DNA of 64,000 bases from Methanocalculus taiwanensis (GCF_024372745.1 NZ_VOTZ01000003.1:1-64000); one strand, 5' to 3'; shown: positions 3,538 to 61,192, counted from the stretch's first letter. Notes: generated by a model not told the origin, from the sequence alone. A program made the numbers and translations.

Positions 3538-4767
3538 ATGATATCAAATTTATCAGATTTCACAGACACTTGCTCTGATATGAAACCTCCAAAACCAGAT
3601 AAAATACTTAGAGTCTGTTCCCTTTTTACTGGTTGTGGAGGAATGGATCTTGGTTTCATTGGTGGTTTTAGTCATCTTGGCACATATTACCCCAAAACCG
3701 GTTTCCGTATCGTCTTCGCAAATGATTTCGACCCAGATGCTAGGATGACGTATCTTGCAAATCGATCTTTCTTAGGCGATCACTCTTATGATGATCGTGA
3801 TGTAAGGGTAATTACTGATTTTGATCAAATTCCAGACTTTGATGTACTAACCGCAGGTTTCCCTTGCCAACCTTTCTCGAGCGCAGGCAATAGAGAAGGC
3901 TATTCTGATAAGCATGGTCGAGGAAACCTTTTCGAAGAGGTTGAACGCTTTATCCAACATAAAAAGCCCCTTGCGATCGTTTTGGAAAATGTCAGGGGAA
4001 TATTAAGCTCGAAGATGCCTGATGGTACACCAGTCACTGAGGAAATTAGTAAAAGAATCGCCGAAGTGAAAACAGATGATGGTGAGCTGATTCGGTATAA
4101 GGTATCACCACCAAGATTATTAAAAGCCTCTGACTATGGCGTTCCTCAACAGAGGTATAGGGTTGTTATAGTGGCGGTAAGAGATGGTTTGGAGCCATTT
4201 TATTTCGAAAAAATGCACAAATACGTGCGAAAAGAATCAATATCTAATAGAAGGTTGAAAGACGTTCTCACTTCTGTAGAAGGACTTCCTAACCAAGATG
4301 AGATATGGGATTTCTCACCGCAGCAGAAGATAATGGTCGAGCATATAATAAGGTCTTGGAAGGATGTCCCATACGAACTTCTACCAGACAGATTTAAGCG
4401 GATACGTGACCAAATCAAGAGATACCGGGCACCGAACTTTTACCGCAGGTTCTCATGGGATGAGATCGCAGGAACGATAACAGCTTCAGCTCAACCGGAA
4501 AATTGCGGAATTTTACATCCAGATATAAAACAGAAGCGACGCTTTACGATAAGAGAAGTTGCTAGAATCCAATCCTTCCCTGATAAGTTTATTTTTAAAG
4601 CTCGAAATGTTCAACAAGAGTATAAGGTGATCGGAAATGCTGTCCCACCCGTACTAGCGTATGTAGTTGCGTGTACTTTGAAAGAGTCTCTCCTGGGTGA
4701 AGATGAAATGCCGATATGTTCTGTTAAATATTCCACTACATCAAAGAGTTTAAGTTGTCGGATATAA
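3538..4767 (+). CDS. dcm: DNA (cytosine-5) methyltransferase
   Basis: A 409-residue C5-cytosine DNA methyltransferase that transfers a methyl group from S-adenosylmethionine to cytosine in a specific DNA site. The family motifs are in order: motif I (SLFTGCGGMDLGF, 28-40), motif IV with catalytic Cys110 (GFPCQPFSSAG), motif VI (ENVRG, 150-154), motif VIII (QRYRV, 205-209), motif IX (GTITASAQPEN, 312-322) and motif X (GNAVPP, 366-371). The target-recognition part lies between VIII and IX. It faces the McrC, McrB, Vsr and EVE genes across a 160-bp gap. The most likely role is the protective methylase of an LlaJI/BsuMI-like restriction system. Those systems normally have two methylases, and only one is seen here. 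The target site cannot be read from the sequence. Confidence 0.93.
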   Translation: MISNLSDFTDTCSDMKPPKPDKILRVCSLFTGCGGMDLGFIGGFSHLGTYYPKTGFRIVFANDFDPDARMTYLANRSFLGDHSYDDRDVRVITDFDQIPDFDVLTAGFPCQPFSSAGNREGYSDKHGRGNLFEEVERFIQHKKPLAIVLENVRGILSSKMPDGTPVTEEISKRIAEVKTDDGELIRYKVSPPRLLKASDYGVPQQRYRVVIVAVRDGLEPFYFEKMHKYVRKESISNRRLKDVLTSVEGLPNQDEIWDFSPQQKIMVEHIIRSWKDVPYELLPDRFKRIRDQIKRYRAPNFYRRFSWDEIAGTITASAQPENCGILHPDIKQKRRFTIREVARIQSFPDKFIFKARNVQQEYKVIGNAVPPVLAYVVACTLKESLLGEDEMPICSVKYSTTSKSLSCRI

Positions 4768-4926
4768 CGATTATTCTCCATTTTTTTTCAAAACCCAAAC
4801 AAATATCCTTCGTTAGAAGAATGCCATGGCTTTTCCAATTATGAATTTTGATGATGCGGGGGGAGAAGGGGTTATGAAATATTTAAAAATATGATGATTT
4901 ATAATTTATATAAAAATATAACTAAA

Positions 4927-6210
4927 TTATGAACCGTTCGGGATAACAATCTTAAGCACACTTCTATAAAATTTTTCAATGTTGTCCTTGAATTCCTCCG
5001 AAGTGGTTGCTGAAAGGTCGATGAATACCGCGTCCACTTTTTTCAAATACACTCGCCGATAACTATTATCAATGAATATAGTCAAGCAGTCTGTATTCTG
5101 GCTGTTCTTCGGATAAATTAAGATTGCCTTTTCAGCTAAAAGACAGGTGGCATAAAACTCAATTTGGTAGATATCTTCGGGAAGGAATACGCGTTCTTTA
5201 CATTTACAATCCAAAACTACCTTGGCGGTTCTTTGCTCAGGGTCATATCGGTAAAGGATATCCGGTTCGATTGATTTGGGAGAATTAGTCGACTCCTTTG
5301 AAATCTCCGCATACCGGATGTTTGTATCGGGTGGAAAGGATATTGATTCAGTTTGTAGTCCCTGATCGATCGAAAACAAATCACTCGATACTTGCAAGAC
5401 TTTCGTGCAAAAATCCTGAAATAATAGATCGAAGTTAACCATAAAGCATGAGCCAGCTCTACCATCCTTAAAAGAGATTACGTTAAGATCGAAGAGCACT
5501 ACTTTCGCCCAGTACAGAGCCTCTGAATATTCAAAATAAATCGTTGAATCGGCGTATTTTTCCGAAAGGAGTTTTCCCTCGTCAACAGAACAATAAGGTA
5601 GAAAACGAGCGAGGCGAACGAAATCATCTGTTATTAAAAATTCTAATTTATAAAGAGCGGCACCAAGAATACGTGAGACGGGGTTGTTGATGGATGTCTC
5701 ATCATAAACACAATTAAACGGCTTTCTCTTTCGTTCATAGAGTCGGATTGCTGTCTCCTCCCAATTTATATGACCTTTTTGATAATCCGAATTCTCTTCT
5801 TTGACGATGAAAAGATGTGGGAGCCCCTTCCCGATTACGCTGTTTAACTCGGTGATAAACTTTCGTGCTATTTCCGTATCGAGGACTCCTTCCCCTACAT
5901 CGAAAAGATCCATAATATTCGAAAGCTCGGACTGCCGGGAATTCACGAAGAAGTACATATATTCAACTTGTCTCATGCCGATCTCTTCGAACCTCGGGAC
6001 AATTTCTACCTTCCTGTTAGGAAGTTCGATATGTCCGACATAAGAACTATTAATTGAACATACGCCTTCTGATAATGAAAAGCTCTCAGGTGAAAGCGTT
6101 TCTGACAAGGAAATATGAAGTGCGGGATATTCCTCTTCACTATATCGAAAAGGTATTCCCTGTTTGATCTTTAAACCCCTAATTTCGCTTTCCATCAACT
6201 TATCCTTCAC
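4927..6210 (-). CDS. mcrC: McrC-family nuclease subunit
   Basis: A 427-residue McrC-type protein, the endonuclease partner of McrB-type GTPases. The C-terminal PD-(D/E)XK site is visible as Pro316-Asp317 and then Asp334-x-Lys336 (VVLDCKCK). The N-terminal half carries the McrC signatures (for example GHIELPNRKVEIVPRF at 59-74). The start is probably the GTG at 6210, which shares its G with the McrB stop (TAGTG), indicating translational coupling; an ATG five codons later is also possible. In LlaJI and BsuMI, homologues of McrB and McrC form a site-specific restriction enzyme that cuts unmodified DNA, while McrBC of E. coli cuts methylated DNA. Which applies here is not decidable from sequence. 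Confidence 0.88.
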   Translation of the reverse strand: MKDKLMESEIRGLKIKQGIPFRYSEEEYPALHISLSETLSPESFSLSEGVCSINSSYVGHIELPNRKVEIVPRFEEIGMRQVEYMYFFVNSRQSELSNIMDLFDVGEGVLDTEIARKFITELNSVIGKGLPHLFIVKEENSDYQKGHINWEETAIRLYERKRKPFNCVYDETSINNPVSRILGAALYKLEFLITDDFVRLARFLPYCSVDEGKLLSEKYADSTIYFEYSEALYWAKVVLFDLNVISFKDGRAGSCFMVNFDLLFQDFCTKVLQVSSDLFSIDQGLQTESISFPPDTNIRYAEISKESTNSPKSIEPDILYRYDPEQRTAKVVLDCKCKERVFLPEDIYQIEFYATCLLAEKAILIYPKNSQNTDCLTIFIDNSYRRVYLKKVDAVFIDLSATTSEEFKDNIEKFYRSVLKIVIPNGS

Positions 6211-7910
6211 TAAATATATTTTTTTATGGCATTGATGAATTCATTGTCATCATCAAAACGAGTATTCAAATCGCCTAAAATCCGATTTAATGTCCCCTCT
6301 TTTCCGAACGTATATTCTTCGAGCATTGGTAGTATCTTATAGTTATATTGCCTTCGAAACTCATCGATCCTCCACTTCTCGCCATTAGGGGGTATGAAAT
6401 ATGTGTGGCCGATTACCATTTCCGTACCAAGGTGTTCAATAATCCTCTTATTTAAGGCTGCAGCGAAGTTAACTAAATTAATATTTTGAGGTTCAGGCCC
6501 TTTTACATCAAGAATAATCTCAGGTGACCTTTCTTCGCTTTGAAAAAAGTCTTCTAAAATGTTTTTGTCGAAATTGAATCGTATAAACGCGAAGCGCCGC
6601 CGTAAAGCGTAGTCTACCAGCGCGATACTACGATCGGTTGAATTCATCGTTCCAAGGATGTATAGGTTCTTCGGGATGTAAAAATCTCCCTCACTAACTT
6701 CGAATTCGGGTTTCACTTTTAGACGATAGTCTCTGTCAAGTGCCTGTATTGTCTCACCGAAGATGTTTGACAGATTACCGCGGTTTATTTCCTCGATGAT
6801 TAAGAGATAATTATCGTCTTTGTTTTGATTGGCCTTCTTACACCATTCAACGAAAGGACCGGGCTTCGTGACGGGTTGATTCTTTTGTTCGTCCCATCTT
6901 GTCCCGCCGATAAAGTCTTCATATCTGAAAGACGGGTGAAATTGGATTCTGTAAACGTTTTCACGTTTGAAAAAGGGTTTGCCTTCTTGCCCCTTCTCGG
7001 CGACTTTACCGGCTATATATGACTTCCCGGTCCCTGGGGGGCCGTATAAGATAGCCTGATTCCACTCTCTCAAGACTTGATATACCTCGTCTGTGTTCAT
7101 AGTTGCCTCCTTTGTAAGTAAACGGTAATCCTTAAATTCGAAAATCGGTATTGGATATTTTACGTAATTCTGATAATCAACCTCGGATTCATTATCTGGT
7201 AAAGCATCTCTTACCTGTTCACCGGTTATCGGGAATGAGGATAATGTTATCGATATAGCTTCTTCCTCGAACATTCGATTTATTTCGGCCTCCGAAATTT
7301 TGAAGTCCTGATAAAATAGATCTCGTAGGAAGGATAATTGAGCGTACTGAGAGGTATTCTCCAATTCTTCGAACTGGTGAAAGCGGTAAACCCAGATCGC
7401 TAAATGATATACATTTATCTTTCGCCCATCGAGGAAGTGTTTCCCTGTTAAGATATCTAAGTAGTCCTGTTTCAAAGAAAATATTTTCAGCCCATTGTTT
7501 TCAAGATCTCGATCGAAATAATAGTCTCGCAACGTATTATCAATAGTATCTTTTACCCTTGCGGGCAAATAATTCCAAACAGTACTTGCATTATTATATT
7601 TATATATAACACTTTGTGTCAAATAATTCGTGTTATCAAAAGCAAACGGATCGAGACAACACCTTTTCCCGGGTTTTTCACCCGGGCCGAATAAGCCGCA
7701 GGTCATTTTTAAGGATTCTAAAAAGTTTTCTCTCTGCCTTGGGGATTCTGTGTTTAAGTAAACATCTGGGATAGGATTGGAGACTGATATTCCCATCCTC
7801 TTCATAACTAAAAATATAGAGAAGAATTCCATCTTATGTTGGGCATCGGTCCATCGCCCTCTTTTAAAATATTCGATGGAATTTTTTACCGTCTCGCTTG
7901 ATATATACAT
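6210..7910 (-). CDS. mcrB: McrB-family AAA+ GTPase subunit
   Basis: A 566-residue protein with an AAA+ motor of the McrB type in its C-terminal half. Walker A is GPPGTGKS (290-297), Walker B is LLIIEEINR (369-377), and the McrB GTP-specificity signature MNxxD is present as MNSTD (422-426). The arginine cluster RRR is at 437-439. The first 280 residues match no DNA-binding domain I recognise; in this family that region reads the DNA target and varies freely. It contains a Cys-rich patch near 71-85. It translocates along DNA by hydrolysing GTP and activates McrC. It is coupled to mcrC by a one-base overlap and lies 30 bp after vsr in the same direction. Confidence 0.88.
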   Translation of the reverse strand: MYISSETVKNSIEYFKRGRWTDAQHKMEFFSIFLVMKRMGISVSNPIPDVYLNTESPRQRENFLESLKMTCGLFGPGEKPGKRCCLDPFAFDNTNYLTQSVIYKYNNASTVWNYLPARVKDTIDNTLRDYYFDRDLENNGLKIFSLKQDYLDILTGKHFLDGRKINVYHLAIWVYRFHQFEELENTSQYAQLSFLRDLFYQDFKISEAEINRMFEEEAISITLSSFPITGEQVRDALPDNESEVDYQNYVKYPIPIFEFKDYRLLTKEATMNTDEVYQVLREWNQAILYGPPGTGKSYIAGKVAEKGQEGKPFFKRENVYRIQFHPSFRYEDFIGGTRWDEQKNQPVTKPGPFVEWCKKANQNKDDNYLLIIEEINRGNLSNIFGETIQALDRDYRLKVKPEFEVSEGDFYIPKNLYILGTMNSTDRSIALVDYALRRRFAFIRFNFDKNILEDFFQSEERSPEIILDVKGPEPQNINLVNFAAALNKRIIEHLGTEMVIGHTYFIPPNGEKWRIDEFRRQYNYKILPMLEEYTFGKEGTLNRILGDLNTRFDDDNEFINAIKKYI

Positions 7911-7940
7911 GTCTTATATCTTCGATATGTCTCTCGTACT

Positions 7941-8426
7941 TTAATAGATCGATCTATCCGTCCTCTGAATAAACTCGGCGACATCTTTGGCGAGAGTCTG
8001 TACATCTTTGTTAATCTCACACTCCCAGAAAACGAAAACTTTCCAGCCACTTTCTTCCAGTTTTAGGATGATATTGGTGTCCCTTTGCCTGTTCCGCGAT
8101 ATCTTCTCTATCCAGAATTGTGAATGGGTCTTAGGTGTTTGTTTTCCACATTTCGGACACCCGTGCCAAAAACACCCGTGTACGAATATCGCGACTTTCT
8201 TTCCTGGGTAGGTAATATCTGGCTTGCCCAAGGCTTTCTCCCAGTTCTTTCTATATCCAGAAAGTCCTATCTCACGAAGCGCTTTTCGTAGAGTGACTTC
8301 CGCCTTCGTGTCTTTAGTCTTCATTGATCTCATCACTTTTTTGACAGTTGAAGAAGAGGCGGGAGGTGGGTTTTTTAAATTATATGGTTCCTCAGCGGTT
8401 TTATTGTACTCTTTTTCATCGTACAT
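7941..8426 (-). CDS. vsr: Very short patch repair endonuclease (Vsr)
   Basis: A 161-residue Vsr-type endonuclease that nicks next to T:G mismatches arising when 5-methylcytosine deaminates. Typical features are the MRSMKTKDT start of the domain (32-40), Asp70 in GKPDIT, the zinc and active-site block FVHGCFWHGCPKCG (81-94), FWIEKISRNRQRD (104-116) and the end WECEI (134-138). About 30 poorly conserved residues precede the domain, so the true start may be later. It lies between the EVE gene and mcrB on the same strand. Its presence supports the view that the neighbouring methyltransferase makes 5-methylcytosine. Confidence 0.92.
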   Translation of the reverse strand: MYDEKEYNKTAEEPYNLKNPPPASSSTVKKVMRSMKTKDTKAEVTLRKALREIGLSGYRKNWEKALGKPDITYPGKKVAIFVHGCFWHGCPKCGKQTPKTHSQFWIEKISRNRQRDTNIILKLEESGWKVFVFWECEINKDVQTLAKDVAEFIQRTDRSIY

Positions 8427-8464
8427 ATTCCGTTAAACAGTAGCAAACTGCTAGAGTGAATTGG

Positions 8465-8950
8465 CTAATCAAAAGCTTCGATCATCATAGAATATTCGGT
8501 CTTCTTGAGAAAATTGGCGTTTTCCTCGTGGAGATGTATCAATGTTTGAAAATCATCCCCTGTGATCTCGAACAGGTACTTTTGCATGCTTCGTTTGATA
8601 ATTTTTAAAAAGTTTTCTGAAATGGTCTCAATATCTTTATATTCAGCAAATCTTATCGGTATGGGTAGTGTAATATTTTTATTTGTATCCACTCGTATCA
8701 TTTTGTTGTCATTATAAACGGATGACGCGATGGATGATATCCCTACTATCGCCCCTCTCCACTCTTTTTTAGATGTTAAGCTGTGTGTTAGATGAGTAAA
8801 AAGTATATCTCCGTCACGGACATCTTTTAATAAATTGAAGTATCTTGTTGTAGCTGGTGCTTTCAATCCGATTTTTTCACCTGTTTGTGCGTCTTTTAAT
8901 TTATTCTCCCAAGCCCAATTACCACTCGCTACTTCTATCCAGATTCTCAT
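8465..8950 (-). CDS. EVE-domain-like protein
   Basis: A 161-residue protein resembling the EVE/PUA-like fold: it begins RIWIEVASGNWAWEN, has a GDILFTHLTH segment (about 48-57) and WRGAIVGISSI (64-74). EVE domains bind modified bases and are often fused to or encoded beside McrB-type GTPases. Here it is a free-standing first gene, 38 bp before vsr, in the order EVE, vsr, mcrB, mcrC. It may read the modified base for the restriction complex; this is inferred from context. The insertion sequence end is only 85 bp upstream, so the operon promoter must lie in that short AT-rich stretch or in the IS itself. Confidence 0.6.
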   Translation of the reverse strand: MRIWIEVASGNWAWENKLKDAQTGEKIGLKAPATTRYFNLLKDVRDGDILFTHLTHSLTSKKEWRGAIVGISSIASSVYNDNKMIRVDTNKNITLPIPIRFAEYKDIETISENFLKIIKRSMQKYLFEITGDDFQTLIHLHEENANFLKKTEYSMMIEAFD

Positions 8951-9035: not shown

Positions 9036-11235
9036 TATATTTCACAATCCGCACCTCTTGAAGCAAAAAAGCTGAATTAGCACCATTTAAGAGAAAATTG
9101 AACCGATAGCTCCGACATTAGATCCCCTATTCCCCCCTCTTCTTGTAAGAGATATATCGCTCCCACAATCCAGGTCACTCTTCCCTCCTCTCAATCCTGC
9201 AGAATATCGATGCTGCTCGCTGCCAAGGTTCACCAAATTTCCAGATAGCGATCAGGAGGTGTCAGGAAGCACTACGCCGATTTGCACTTCGCCGATCCAA
9301 ACTGATCCCCTACCACCGATCCCATACCAATAAGATAGAGCAGGATCGCCAGGCGATACTTGTTCCGTTCATTAATACCCGTGATCTGGCGGTTTCCCTC
9401 TTCGGTGAGAATATTGAATGAGCCAAGTGACTGTATCAGAAACGCCGCTGTTGGAGATTTCAGGGGTTTATTATCGATATAGATTCTGGGCGGCTCCGGC
9501 AGTTTCCTGATGTTCATCCGTGCAACCATCTGTAGAATTCCCATCACAAGATACGAGACATACAGTATCATCATCATGGCATCGATCCGTTTTGGATTAT
9601 TCAGATAGATCCGGTCTGCCATGATTGACCATTTCATTGTTCGGAAAATGTTCTCGACAATATGCTGCTGTTTGTAATGGCGGAGCACGGACCTGTCATC
9701 CATCTCCGATTCGAAATGATTTGTCAGGAGAGCGAATGTCTCCTTCTTCTCTCTGAACTTTCTCACCCGGTCCTCGTGCAGACTGATCTCCTTCACCCGG
9801 ACATGGTAGACCGTCCACTCTTCAAGAGGTTTCGTCTCCTCTCCCCTCCGTCCCCGTGGCCATCGTTGTTTTTTCTCGGATTCGATCTCGATCACCGGTT
9901 GGACAAGCAGTTTCCTGGACTGTTCGTGCAGCTCTTCAATTGCCCTCAATGCATCAGGTTCACAGGCAAATGGAGTTTTGAACTTCTTCTCCTTGATCAA
10001 TTCCTCCAACGTAGTTGTATCAGTCTTTATCTGGCTCTGCACCCTCTCATCTGCTGCCGATGTTTCATAGACGACAAGTGTATAGGGTAATCCATAGAGA
10101 TCAACCTCAAATCTCTGTGAACGGTAGGTTGCCCGTTTATCGTGCGCCTCCTCCTCGGTACAACATTGACCAAGGTCTGTCCACTGATTCCGTTCACGGG
10201 CAATCGATCTGTATCGTTCAGCAAGTTTCCCTGCGAAATTCGCTGGAATATGTGATATAAACCGCACTTCAGATCCTTGCCGGTTTAAAACCTCCAGATT
10301 GGGACGGTTGATGAGTTTTGAATCTGCAATGTAGGTATGGTCTTTGAACTCTTCCCCGAAAATCTCCTGAAGAACGGTGAGCGCTTCCATATTCCAGACG
10401 GAGTCTGCATGATTTCCATTCATGGTTTTGCAATACCGGATCAGTCCATTGCCATCTGAGACGGCTCCTGTCTGAAAGATCCTGCGATCCCTTCGGCCGG
10501 TTTTGTTGAGGCCAAAACAGATTGTTGGACCATGAACATCTGGTGTTTCCTCAAGATCATACTCGCCACAGACCTCATGTGATGTGACATCGCTGTGGAG
10601 GATGAGTGATTGTGGGATATCATAGATGGCATAGGCCCGGAGAGAGAGCTGTTGAAAGAAGTTTGAGGGACAGGCATCTGCGAACTTGTCAAGGAACCTT
10701 CCGAGACAATCGTCAGTAAACGATGTGGCAGGTATGGCTGAACCAAAGATCAGTTCTGTGTCGATATCTTCGAGCTGCTGGCTCACATGGACTAGTGCAA
10801 CCCGCTGGTGGGTGGAGATAAAAGGCAGCAGAACCAGGGCGAGTGCTCTGTTTCCCGGGCTGATCGAACACTGATTTTGATCCCAGGATACCGTTTTGTT
10901 TACCAGGTCAACAAACCCGACTTGGTCGAGGATTGACCGAACAACCAAGGCAATGAGTGGGGTTATCTGTGTTGGAGAGGGTGATTCCGGTATACGATCC
11001 ACCAGATTCCTGATTTCTTTGATCGGATCGGTTACACTCATTTTGGTTTTCGGATAGAGGCGATCCATTTTGGTCTGGCCATTCTTCTCCCTCTGTTTCG
11101 GCATGATGGATATAGAATGAGGATGAATTTATAGTTAATCATTATGTTGGATAATAGTTGTACTAGTTGGTACATTGTTAAATGAAAATATAATTAAATG
11201 TGAATTGTGAATGGGGTGCGGATTCTGAAATATAT
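9036..11235 (-). mobile_element. Complete IS1634-like insertion sequence with terminal inverted repeats
   Basis: The element encloses the transposase at 9272-11104. Its left end reads tttcacaatccgcacctc (9040-9057), and the right end, read on the other strand, is tttcagaatccgcacccc (11231-11214), matching at 16 of 18 bases. The AT-rich tatat sequence outside each end makes the exact boundary and target duplication ambiguous by a few bases. Length is about 2.2 kb. It sits in AT-rich intergenic DNA upstream of the EVE gene and breaks no recognisable gene. A match to its terminal repeat also occurs at 2453-2466. Confidence 0.82.
9272..11104 (-). CDS. IS1634-like transposase (DDE)
   Basis: A 610-residue DDE transposase. 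A DUF4277-like N-terminal region lies near residues 30-150, followed by the RNase H-like core. Likely acidic residues are Asp in LILHSDVTS (about 170), Asp in HTYIADSKL, and Glu in the late helix HIVENIFRTMKW near residue 500. The long Lys/Arg-rich insertion (about 390-430) is usual for this group. The frame is open and full length, so the element may be active. The C-terminus ends QFGSAKCKSA, and a sequence encoding QFGSA recurs in the relic at 2420-2440. Confidence 0.85.
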   Translation of the reverse strand: MPKQREKNGQTKMDRLYPKTKMSVTDPIKEIRNLVDRIPESPSPTQITPLIALVVRSILDQVGFVDLVNKTVSWDQNQCSISPGNRALALVLLPFISTHQRVALVHVSQQLEDIDTELIFGSAIPATSFTDDCLGRFLDKFADACPSNFFQQLSLRAYAIYDIPQSLILHSDVTSHEVCGEYDLEETPDVHGPTICFGLNKTGRRDRRIFQTGAVSDGNGLIRYCKTMNGNHADSVWNMEALTVLQEIFGEEFKDHTYIADSKLINRPNLEVLNRQGSEVRFISHIPANFAGKLAERYRSIARERNQWTDLGQCCTEEEAHDKRATYRSQRFEVDLYGLPYTLVVYETSAADERVQSQIKTDTTTLEELIKEKKFKTPFACEPDALRAIEELHEQSRKLLVQPVIEIESEKKQRWPRGRRGEETKPLEEWTVYHVRVKEISLHEDRVRKFREKKETFALLTNHFESEMDDRSVLRHYKQQHIVENIFRTMKWSIMADRIYLNNPKRIDAMMMILYVSYLVMGILQMVARMNIRKLPEPPRIYIDNKPLKSPTAAFLIQSLGSFNILTEEGNRQITGINERNKYRLAILLYLIGMGSVVGDQFGSAKCKSA

Positions 11236-59748: not shown

Positions 59749-60939
59749 TTAGAAGTCCGTCATGATACGGAACTGATCGATCTCTTCTGAATTAATCTCT
59801 TCGAGGAACTCTTCTGCCGCGTGCTGGATGTTCTTGCTTGCGGTGATGGCACGGCCGACGACGAGGATGTCAGCTCCGGACGCGAGTGCTTTCTTTGCCA
59901 CATTGACGCGGATGCCGCCTGCGGTTGCAACAAGGATCTTTCCGCCTGCTGCCTTCTTGATTGCGGGGATGTCACCCCAGGCATAGTCGCTTCCTTCTGC
60001 GTCGATTGCACGGTGCATCTCAACGACATGCGGGAGAGCATTGATCTTGGCAAGCGCCTTTACAAGGTTTAATGGTGATTCGACATTGAGCATATCGACG
60101 ACTGCGTAGATGCCGGTCTTCCGTGCCTCAAGGACTGCCTTCTCGATGGTTGAGATGGGGGCGAGGCCGGAGATCACAACGGCGTCAGCGGATGCATTTG
60201 CACACATCCGGGTCTCGAGGTTCCCGGTGTCGAGGGTCTTTAGGTCTGCGATGATGAAGGCGTTTGGCCTCATCTTCCTGATCTCTCCGATGACCGAGAG
60301 GCCGAACTGTTTGATCAGCGGTGTGCCTGCCTCGATGATCAGGTGGTCGTTCTGTGGAAGTTCTGTTAAGACACGCTCGACCTGGTTCATGTCAACGAGA
60401 TCCATGGCAACCTGGAGGTATGGAGGGTTCCAGAGCCGCTGGACCTTGAAGCCCATGACGCCGTGTGCTGCCCGGTCCTTCTCGTGGAGGATCGTCTTTT
60501 CGTCCGGGAAGGATTCGAATGCCCGTGAGAGTGAGAGTTTCATGGCCCCGTAGTTGTACCGGTAGATCCGGTTGTAGTCTTCTGCATCCGGTGCAAGGTA
60601 GACGCTTGCAATGATGACGATATCATCGATGTTGATGCCATTGAAGAGCCCTTCTTCGAGACTGTCTGCAACGGCCTTTGCCACTGCCGCCTGCACAGGC
60701 CCAAACATCTCTTTTACCTGTTCGCCCTTCTTCAGGGTGACCTTCGGGATGATGACGGTTGCGGGCTTTGTCAGGAGGTTTGGCCTGATCACTGCGAGCA
60801 GAGGGGTGTGCCCTGCCGAGAGCTGTGAGAGTGCATTTGCAAATGCTGTTCCTACAGGCCCGTTTTTGTCTCCGACTAACAGGTCGATGTGCGCAAGTTC
60901 GGGCCCATCGCCAACTAAAGCTTCACCTATTGAATACAT
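59749..60939 (-). CDS. fae-hps: Bifunctional formaldehyde-activating enzyme / hexulose-6-phosphate synthase
   Basis: A 396-residue fusion. The N-terminal Fae domain (1 to about 165; MYSIGEALVGDGPELAHIDL, with His17) condenses formaldehyde with tetrahydromethanopterin. The C-terminal Hps domain (about 170-396; VDMNQVERVLTELPQNDHLI, IIADLKTLDTGNLETRM, AGGIRVNVAKKALASGADILVVGRAI) is an orotidine-decarboxylase-fold barrel that makes or splits hexulose 6-phosphate. In methanogens the pair supplies ribulose 5-phosphate for pentose synthesis and captures the released formaldehyde. The start is the ATG at 60939; the longer frame adds a non-conserved stretch next to the tRNA gene. Confidence 0.95.
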   Translation of the reverse strand: MYSIGEALVGDGPELAHIDLLVGDKNGPVGTAFANALSQLSAGHTPLLAVIRPNLLTKPATVIIPKVTLKKGEQVKEMFGPVQAAVAKAVADSLEEGLFNGINIDDIVIIASVYLAPDAEDYNRIYRYNYGAMKLSLSRAFESFPDEKTILHEKDRAAHGVMGFKVQRLWNPPYLQVAMDLVDMNQVERVLTELPQNDHLIIEAGTPLIKQFGLSVIGEIRKMRPNAFIIADLKTLDTGNLETRMCANASADAVVISGLAPISTIEKAVLEARKTGIYAVVDMLNVESPLNLVKALAKINALPHVVEMHRAIDAEGSDYAWGDIPAIKKAAGGKILVATAGGIRVNVAKKALASGADILVVGRAITASKNIQHAAEEFLEEINSEEIDQFRIMTDF

Positions 60940-61016
60940 ACAAAAGTTCCTGCCTTGCTCATAACTATGGATCGAAGATCTATAAAATGACAAGCGCTTT
61001 TCAGAAGAATGAAAGG

Positions 61017-61192
61017 TGGGGTCGGTGAGATTTGAACTCACGATCGACGGGTCTCTCCGACAAGCGTATGAGCGGATACTTCAGCATCAGCGCTCCAACG
61101 GGTCATCATCTCAATCAATCAGCAGACCCGATTGTTCATCATACGCCAAGACCGCTGGAGCCCGTCGCCATACCGGACTAGGCCACGACCCC
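61017..61192 (-). tRNA. tRNA-Trp (anticodon CCA) with a 102-base intron
   Basis: The exons are 61192-61155 (38 bases, ending CTCCAG) and 61052-61017 (36 bases). Joined, they give acceptor GGGGTCG/CGACCCC with discriminator A, D-arm GCC-TAGTCCGGTAT-GGC, anticodon stem ACGGG/CCCGT with anticodon CCA, and T-arm GTGAG-TTCAAAT-CTCAC. The intron lies after position 37, the canonical archaeal site, and contains a C/D box guide RNA. No CCA is encoded. Confidence 0.94.
61053..61154 (-). ncRNA. Intron-encoded C/D box guide sRNA (2'-O-methylation of tRNA-Trp)
   Basis: On the minus strand the intron holds box C ATGATGA (61136-61142), box D' CTGA (61119-61122), box C' ATGATGA (61103-61109) and box D CTGA (61087-61090). 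The D' guide (cggtctg-like, 61123-61130) pairs with CAGACCCG across the spliced anticodon loop, putting the fifth base on C39. The D guide (61091-61102) pairs with the 5' exon GCTCCA, putting the fifth base on C34. These are the two positions known to be methylated by the tRNA-Trp intron in Haloferax and other euryarchaea. Confidence 0.88.

Follow-up and report, generated by a model that had tools for sequence, protein, structure and literature searches.

The window, the whole stretch of 64,000 nucleotides from Methanocalculus taiwanensis that was analysed, carries a cluster of five genes. A C5-cytosine DNA methyltransferase of 409 aa (M; positions 3538-4767, plus strand; PF00145, E = 1.9e-64) faces four genes on the minus strand: an McrC-like nuclease subunit of 427 aa (4927-6210; PF10117, E = 4.4e-24), an McrB-like AAA+ motor of 566 aa (6210-7910; AAA_5, E = 1.4e-16; NCBIfam McrB, E = 1.9e-38), a Vsr-type T:G mismatch nicking endonuclease of 161 aa (7941-8426; PF03852, E = 2e-22, and TIGR00632, both above cut-off) and a divergent, stand-alone EVE-like protein of the PUA superfamily, also of 161 aa (8465-8950; PF01878, marginal at E = 1e-4). 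The minus-strand genes form an operon (8950-4927) transcribed in the order EVE-Vsr-McrB-McrC, with gaps of 38 nt between EVE and Vsr and 30 nt between Vsr and McrB and an overlap of 1 nt between McrB and McrC. M is convergent with the McrC end of this operon, with 159 nt in between. The initial annotation had placed five such genes here, and all ORFs were confirmed on their strands, the EVE call being marginal (22.7 bits versus a cut-off of 23 for PF01878).

The restriction-modification (RM) cluster is most likely a horizontally acquired island, as judged from its G+C content of 36-43% versus 53% in the remainder of the window, from a transposase gene (DUF4277, weak DDE_Tnp_1; 9272-11104) that flanks it directly upstream of the EVE operon, and from the absence of a full-length McrB match in all 120 relatives. 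It is adjoined by an AAA ATPase gene and a small partner (258-2249; 29% G+C) that resemble the PD-T4-4 defence pair (PADLOC, E = 2e-44 and 1e-3); pair and cluster together make up a small defence island. Elsewhere in the window, a Fae-Hps-type fusion gene was identified by inspection at 59749-61041, and a tRNA match at 61017-61192 encloses the C/D-box RNA sR3 (61085-61146). A C/D-box RNA inside an intron is known for archaeal tRNA-Trp. Both the fusion gene and the RNA point to an archaeal host.

Motifs I, IV (PCQPFS), VI (ENVRG), VIII, IX and X of M are all intact, and its target-recognition region spans approximately residues 250-332. The host assembly comprises 2.34 Mb, and the genome-level sequence used consisted of sampled stretches. 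No C5 methylase other than M was found in the host genome, and the possibility that a further one lies outside the cluster was rejected on the basis of this search. The idea that M is an unrelated orphan was rejected as well.

A search of plasmids and phages with McrB as the only query gave three full-length relatives with 31-33% identity, located on the Staphylococcus epidermidis plasmid NZ_CP121512, on pLS2 of F. sanfranciscensis and in the Ruminococcus phage PV036414. Each adjoins one C5 methylase and an McrC-like gene. The three methylases share 46-50% identity with M, compared to 35% for the plasmid methylase that ranks next. A fourth independent case (L242) was found in viral contigs with the N-terminal domain of McrB as query and again lies beside a C5 methylase of the M family; a pattern search of viral contigs with McrB gave no match. 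When genomes were scanned with the target-recognition region of M as query, 80 loci were obtained. Annotation with local profiles revealed approximately 18 loci with M, McrB and McrC in Bacillota, Bacteroidota, Riflebacteria, plasmids and phages, the McrBs of which form a supported clade. Each of these loci has one methylase, with the exception of an outgroup (L093) that has two. The single methylase, regarded as an oddity in the initial annotation, is therefore the usual state, and PcaI (PMC8989522) also has only one. M is often in the same operon as McrB and McrC in the relatives, and the convergent order seen in the window recurs in Pontibacter (L046; M> <McrC <McrB <Vsr) and, at a contig end, in Crocinitomix (L043; M> <McrC <McrB). 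M, McrB and McrC are co-inherited as a three-gene core. In 395 Bacteroidota, the 20 best McrC relatives besides the Pontibacter seed belonged to ordinary McrBC loci without a methylase, and in 398 Bacillota the N-terminal domain of McrB was found in the seed genome only. A sister branch in Prevotella (L107:12232-14589 and L108:4626-7049) combines the M family with larger McrB-like genes; the partner proteins of approximately 750-800 aa match DUF2357 and PDDEXK_7 in L108 and no Pfam model in L107.

McrB has the sequence MNSTDRS, which corresponds to the signature motif MNxxDRS and is kept in the relatives, and the McrB family profile matches E. coli McrB in the PDB at 3e-52. The PD-(D/E)xK residues of McrC, D317, D334 and K336, are invariant among the relatives. 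The N-terminal domain of McrB (residues 1-262) is of the specificity type and belongs to no recognised family; Pfam searches gave no match in it to the modified-base readers DUF3578, YTH, EVE or SRA. An AlphaFold2 model of this domain (pLDDT 74, pTM 0.78) is mostly helical and had no match in the PDB at E <= 0.001; the top 50 contained no B3 protein. A Type II-like action of McrB and McrC is favoured by the lack of a Pfam reader domain and of a PDB match, by the methylase being a constant partner, and by the precedent of PcaI.

The target-recognition region of M is common to methylases that accompany three different nuclease modules: McrBC-like, a two-gene module named here c1+c2, and Hpy99I-like. 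Across the methylases linked to the three modules, identity in residues 250-332 is 57-71%, compared to 46-59% in the catalytic half, a conservation that is inflated to some extent because the loci were collected partly via this very region. An Hpy99I-like endonuclease (E = 4e-33 to 3fc3) adjoins an M-family gene in five loci, and these five methylases are 57-68% identical to M in residues 250-332. Hpy99I cleaves at CGWCG (PMC4081073), and a palindromic CGWCG or a near relative is predicted as the target of M, at somewhat better than even odds. Since M.Hpy99I is an m4C enzyme (PMC3936762), the link to CGWCG rests on the Hpy99I endonuclease and not on its methylase. If the site is palindromic, one methylase is enough for full protection. 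In line with the prediction, 5mC was seen at CGWCG in a Bacillus with one C5 methyltransferase gene (PMC9808626). Near M-family loci the observed/expected ratio of CGWCG is 0.69, 0.57 and 0.70 in the three nuclease classes, versus 0.96, 0.97 and 0.86 in the Bacillota, Bacteroidota and same-genus controls, respectively. This under-representation is similar in core and flanks, but it is shared by further palindromes, GGWCC and GGCC among them. In the host genome the ratio is 0.76, barely lower than the 0.78-0.90 of congeners, and the deamination products of CGWCG gave no clear signal there. In several relatives (L032, L034, L048), M carries at its N terminus a Cro/C1-type HTH (PF13443) that is absent from M of the window; this suggests that these methylases may regulate themselves.

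The commonest partner of the M family is the c1+c2 module (L045:10432-12395 and 38 similar loci). The c1 protein (approximately 463 aa) has no Pfam or PDB match and appears LAGLIDADG-like by eye, and c2 (approximately 195 aa) has a weak PD-(D/E)xK match; the module is often followed by Vsr. M together with c1/c2 looks like an undescribed type of RM system, and these systems may be more novel than the McrBC system of the window.

Vsr of the window, the only Vsr found in the host genome, keeps the catalytic residues E, D, H, H and D as well as the intercalating F-W (alignment to 1cw0, E = 1.4e-21), and Thr63 of E. coli Vsr is replaced by Val. Vsr is also present in 12 other M-family loci, including eight c1/c2 systems and one McrBC locus of the clade of the window. 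From this recurrence, Vsr would be an ordinary companion of the M family and would keep mutation at the methylated site in check.

The EVE-like protein, in turn, matches PRK00809 at E = 3e-5 and, by hhalign, 26 archaeal EVE proteins with a probability of 72.5%; AlphaFold2, run on the single sequence, returned a pLDDT of 35. Searches with the sequence of the protein and with a profile of archaeal EVE proteins detected no EVE protein in approximately 90 related loci, where some contigs end near M and where an equally divergent EVE protein may be missed, the profile giving the protein of the window itself 20.6 bits. EVE was likewise not found in 20 ordinary McrBC loci, in L242, or, in a search run without a positive control, in 40 genomes with M-family systems, and no homologues of the EVE-like protein were found in plasmids, phages or viral contigs. 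As judged by this distribution, the gene is an accessory, optional passenger and not a core part, and the core would function without EVE. M of L242 (5768-7369) has an N-terminal extension of approximately 185 aa that is possibly ASCH-like (PUA superfamily; Pfam sub-threshold, E = 0.16), and a weak relative of the EVE-like protein in locus L122 apparently lies beside an Mrr-like restriction gene. Stand-alone EVE genes that neighbour RM systems in archaea have been described in Bell et al. 2020 (PMC7641849).

Altogether, we consider the cluster to be a Type II-like RM system with an McrBC-type nuclease of the PcaI/LlaJI kind, an McrB specificity domain of no recognised family and an optional EVE protein; we put the probability of this reading at roughly three in four. 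M would methylate one cytosine per strand of a short palindrome, for which CGWCG is predicted. A hexamer of the McrB-like protein would recognise the unmethylated site by its N-terminal domain, and its AAA+ motor would direct the PD-(D/E)xK subunit McrC to cut foreign DNA. Vsr would repair the T:G mismatches that arise by deamination of the system's own 5-methylcytosine, and the EVE-like protein most likely binds modified bases and thereby tunes the action of the system. The likeness to LlaJI- and BsuMI-type systems that cut unmethylated DNA, already proposed in the initial annotation, gains weight from the finding that all detected relatives of this McrB have a methylase of a single target-recognition family as partner.

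That annotation had also left room for a methylation-dependent system. In such a reading, a Type IV McrBC would stand beside an unrelated methylase and Vsr. The homology of McrB and McrC is compatible with it, as is the location of M on the opposite strand. Classic McrBC cuts DNA containing 5-methylcytosine and usually has no cognate methylase. However, in every relative a methylase of one family lies beside McrB and McrC, a 5mC-cutting nuclease encoded beside the genome's sole C5 methylase would risk self-destruction, and the N-terminal domain of McrB resembles neither the DUF3578, EVE and YTH models nor any PDB fold; a Type IV system is, therefore, very improbable. A role for the EVE-like protein as a working subunit that reads 5mC is also unlikely, though less so. 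Such a subunit would either gate McrBC off self DNA or extend its action to methylated foreign DNA, giving the system a dual specificity. The position of the gene as the first of the operon, only 38 nt from the next, speaks for this, and the ASCH-like extension in L242, the Mrr-linked relative and the passage of Bell et al. can be counted in its favour. Against it stands the absence of EVE from all other related loci and from the 40 genomes, the latter lacking a positive control; moreover, the EVE assignment and the ASCH match of L242 are both sub-threshold, and modelling gave no usable fold for the EVE-like protein. The more specific version, in which EVE reads the 5mC set by the system's own methylase and gates McrBC in trans, so that unmethylated, self-methylated and foreign-methylated DNA are told apart, appears slightly less probable still. 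Hence, the proposal that an EVE reader of 5mC defines a compact variant, for which absence from all related clusters had been named as the contrary outcome, is not borne out by the loci examined.

The Type II-like reading defines a testable family of McrBC-type nucleases with one C5 methylase and one predicted target, CGWCG, distributed over archaea and bacteria as well as plasmids and phages. At least two unrelated nuclease modules have this methylase in common, which shows that nucleases are exchanged while the methylation mark stays fixed. The specificity domain of McrB in this branch matched no solved structure. If the CGWCG prediction is true, the commercially available Hpy99I would provide an immediate protection assay.

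Among known systems, those of Bell et al. 2020 resemble the window in that an archaeal restriction system is accompanied by a stand-alone EVE protein, but the EVE contexts given in the passage concerned are Type I RM and COG1743/DUF499/SWI2-SNF2 systems, not a C5 methylase with Vsr and McrBC. Hpy99I-type RM resembles the window in that an Hpy99I-like endonuclease lies beside methylases with the target-recognition region of M; however, the Hpy99I nuclease is a beta-beta-alpha-Me enzyme and its methylase makes m4C (PMC3936762), whereas M is a C5 methylase. BsuMI of Bacillus subtilis combines McrB/McrC-like restriction subunits with C5 methylation, as does the window. Unlike the window, it has three restriction ORFs, and its McrB-like subunit is small (343 aa; PMC1459862). 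LlaJI of Lactococcus and its H. pylori relative share with the window an McrB-like specificity/GTPase subunit, an McrC-like nuclease and C5 methylation. BsuMI has two methylases. So has LlaJI, which cuts unmethylated DNA and needs both because its site, GACGC/GCGTC, is asymmetric (PMC1459862), whereas the window has one methylase in the locus and in the genome. The N-terminal domain of LlaJI is of the B3 type (PMC12707154, PMC7680126), in contrast to the unrecognised domain in McrB of the window. PcaI (PcaRCI) of Pectobacterium carotovorum RC5297 recognises CCNGG, and its PcaIB has large extensions that are absent from the 427-aa McrC of the window; the main text on PcaI mentions no Vsr and has EVE only in a cited title, whereas the window has both genes. 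Like the window, PcaI has one C5 methylase with McrB-like and McrC-like subunits in a low-GC mobile region, and experiments showed that this McrBC-like enzyme, the DNA-binding domain of which is unrelated, restricts unmethylated DNA (NAR 2022; PMC8989522).
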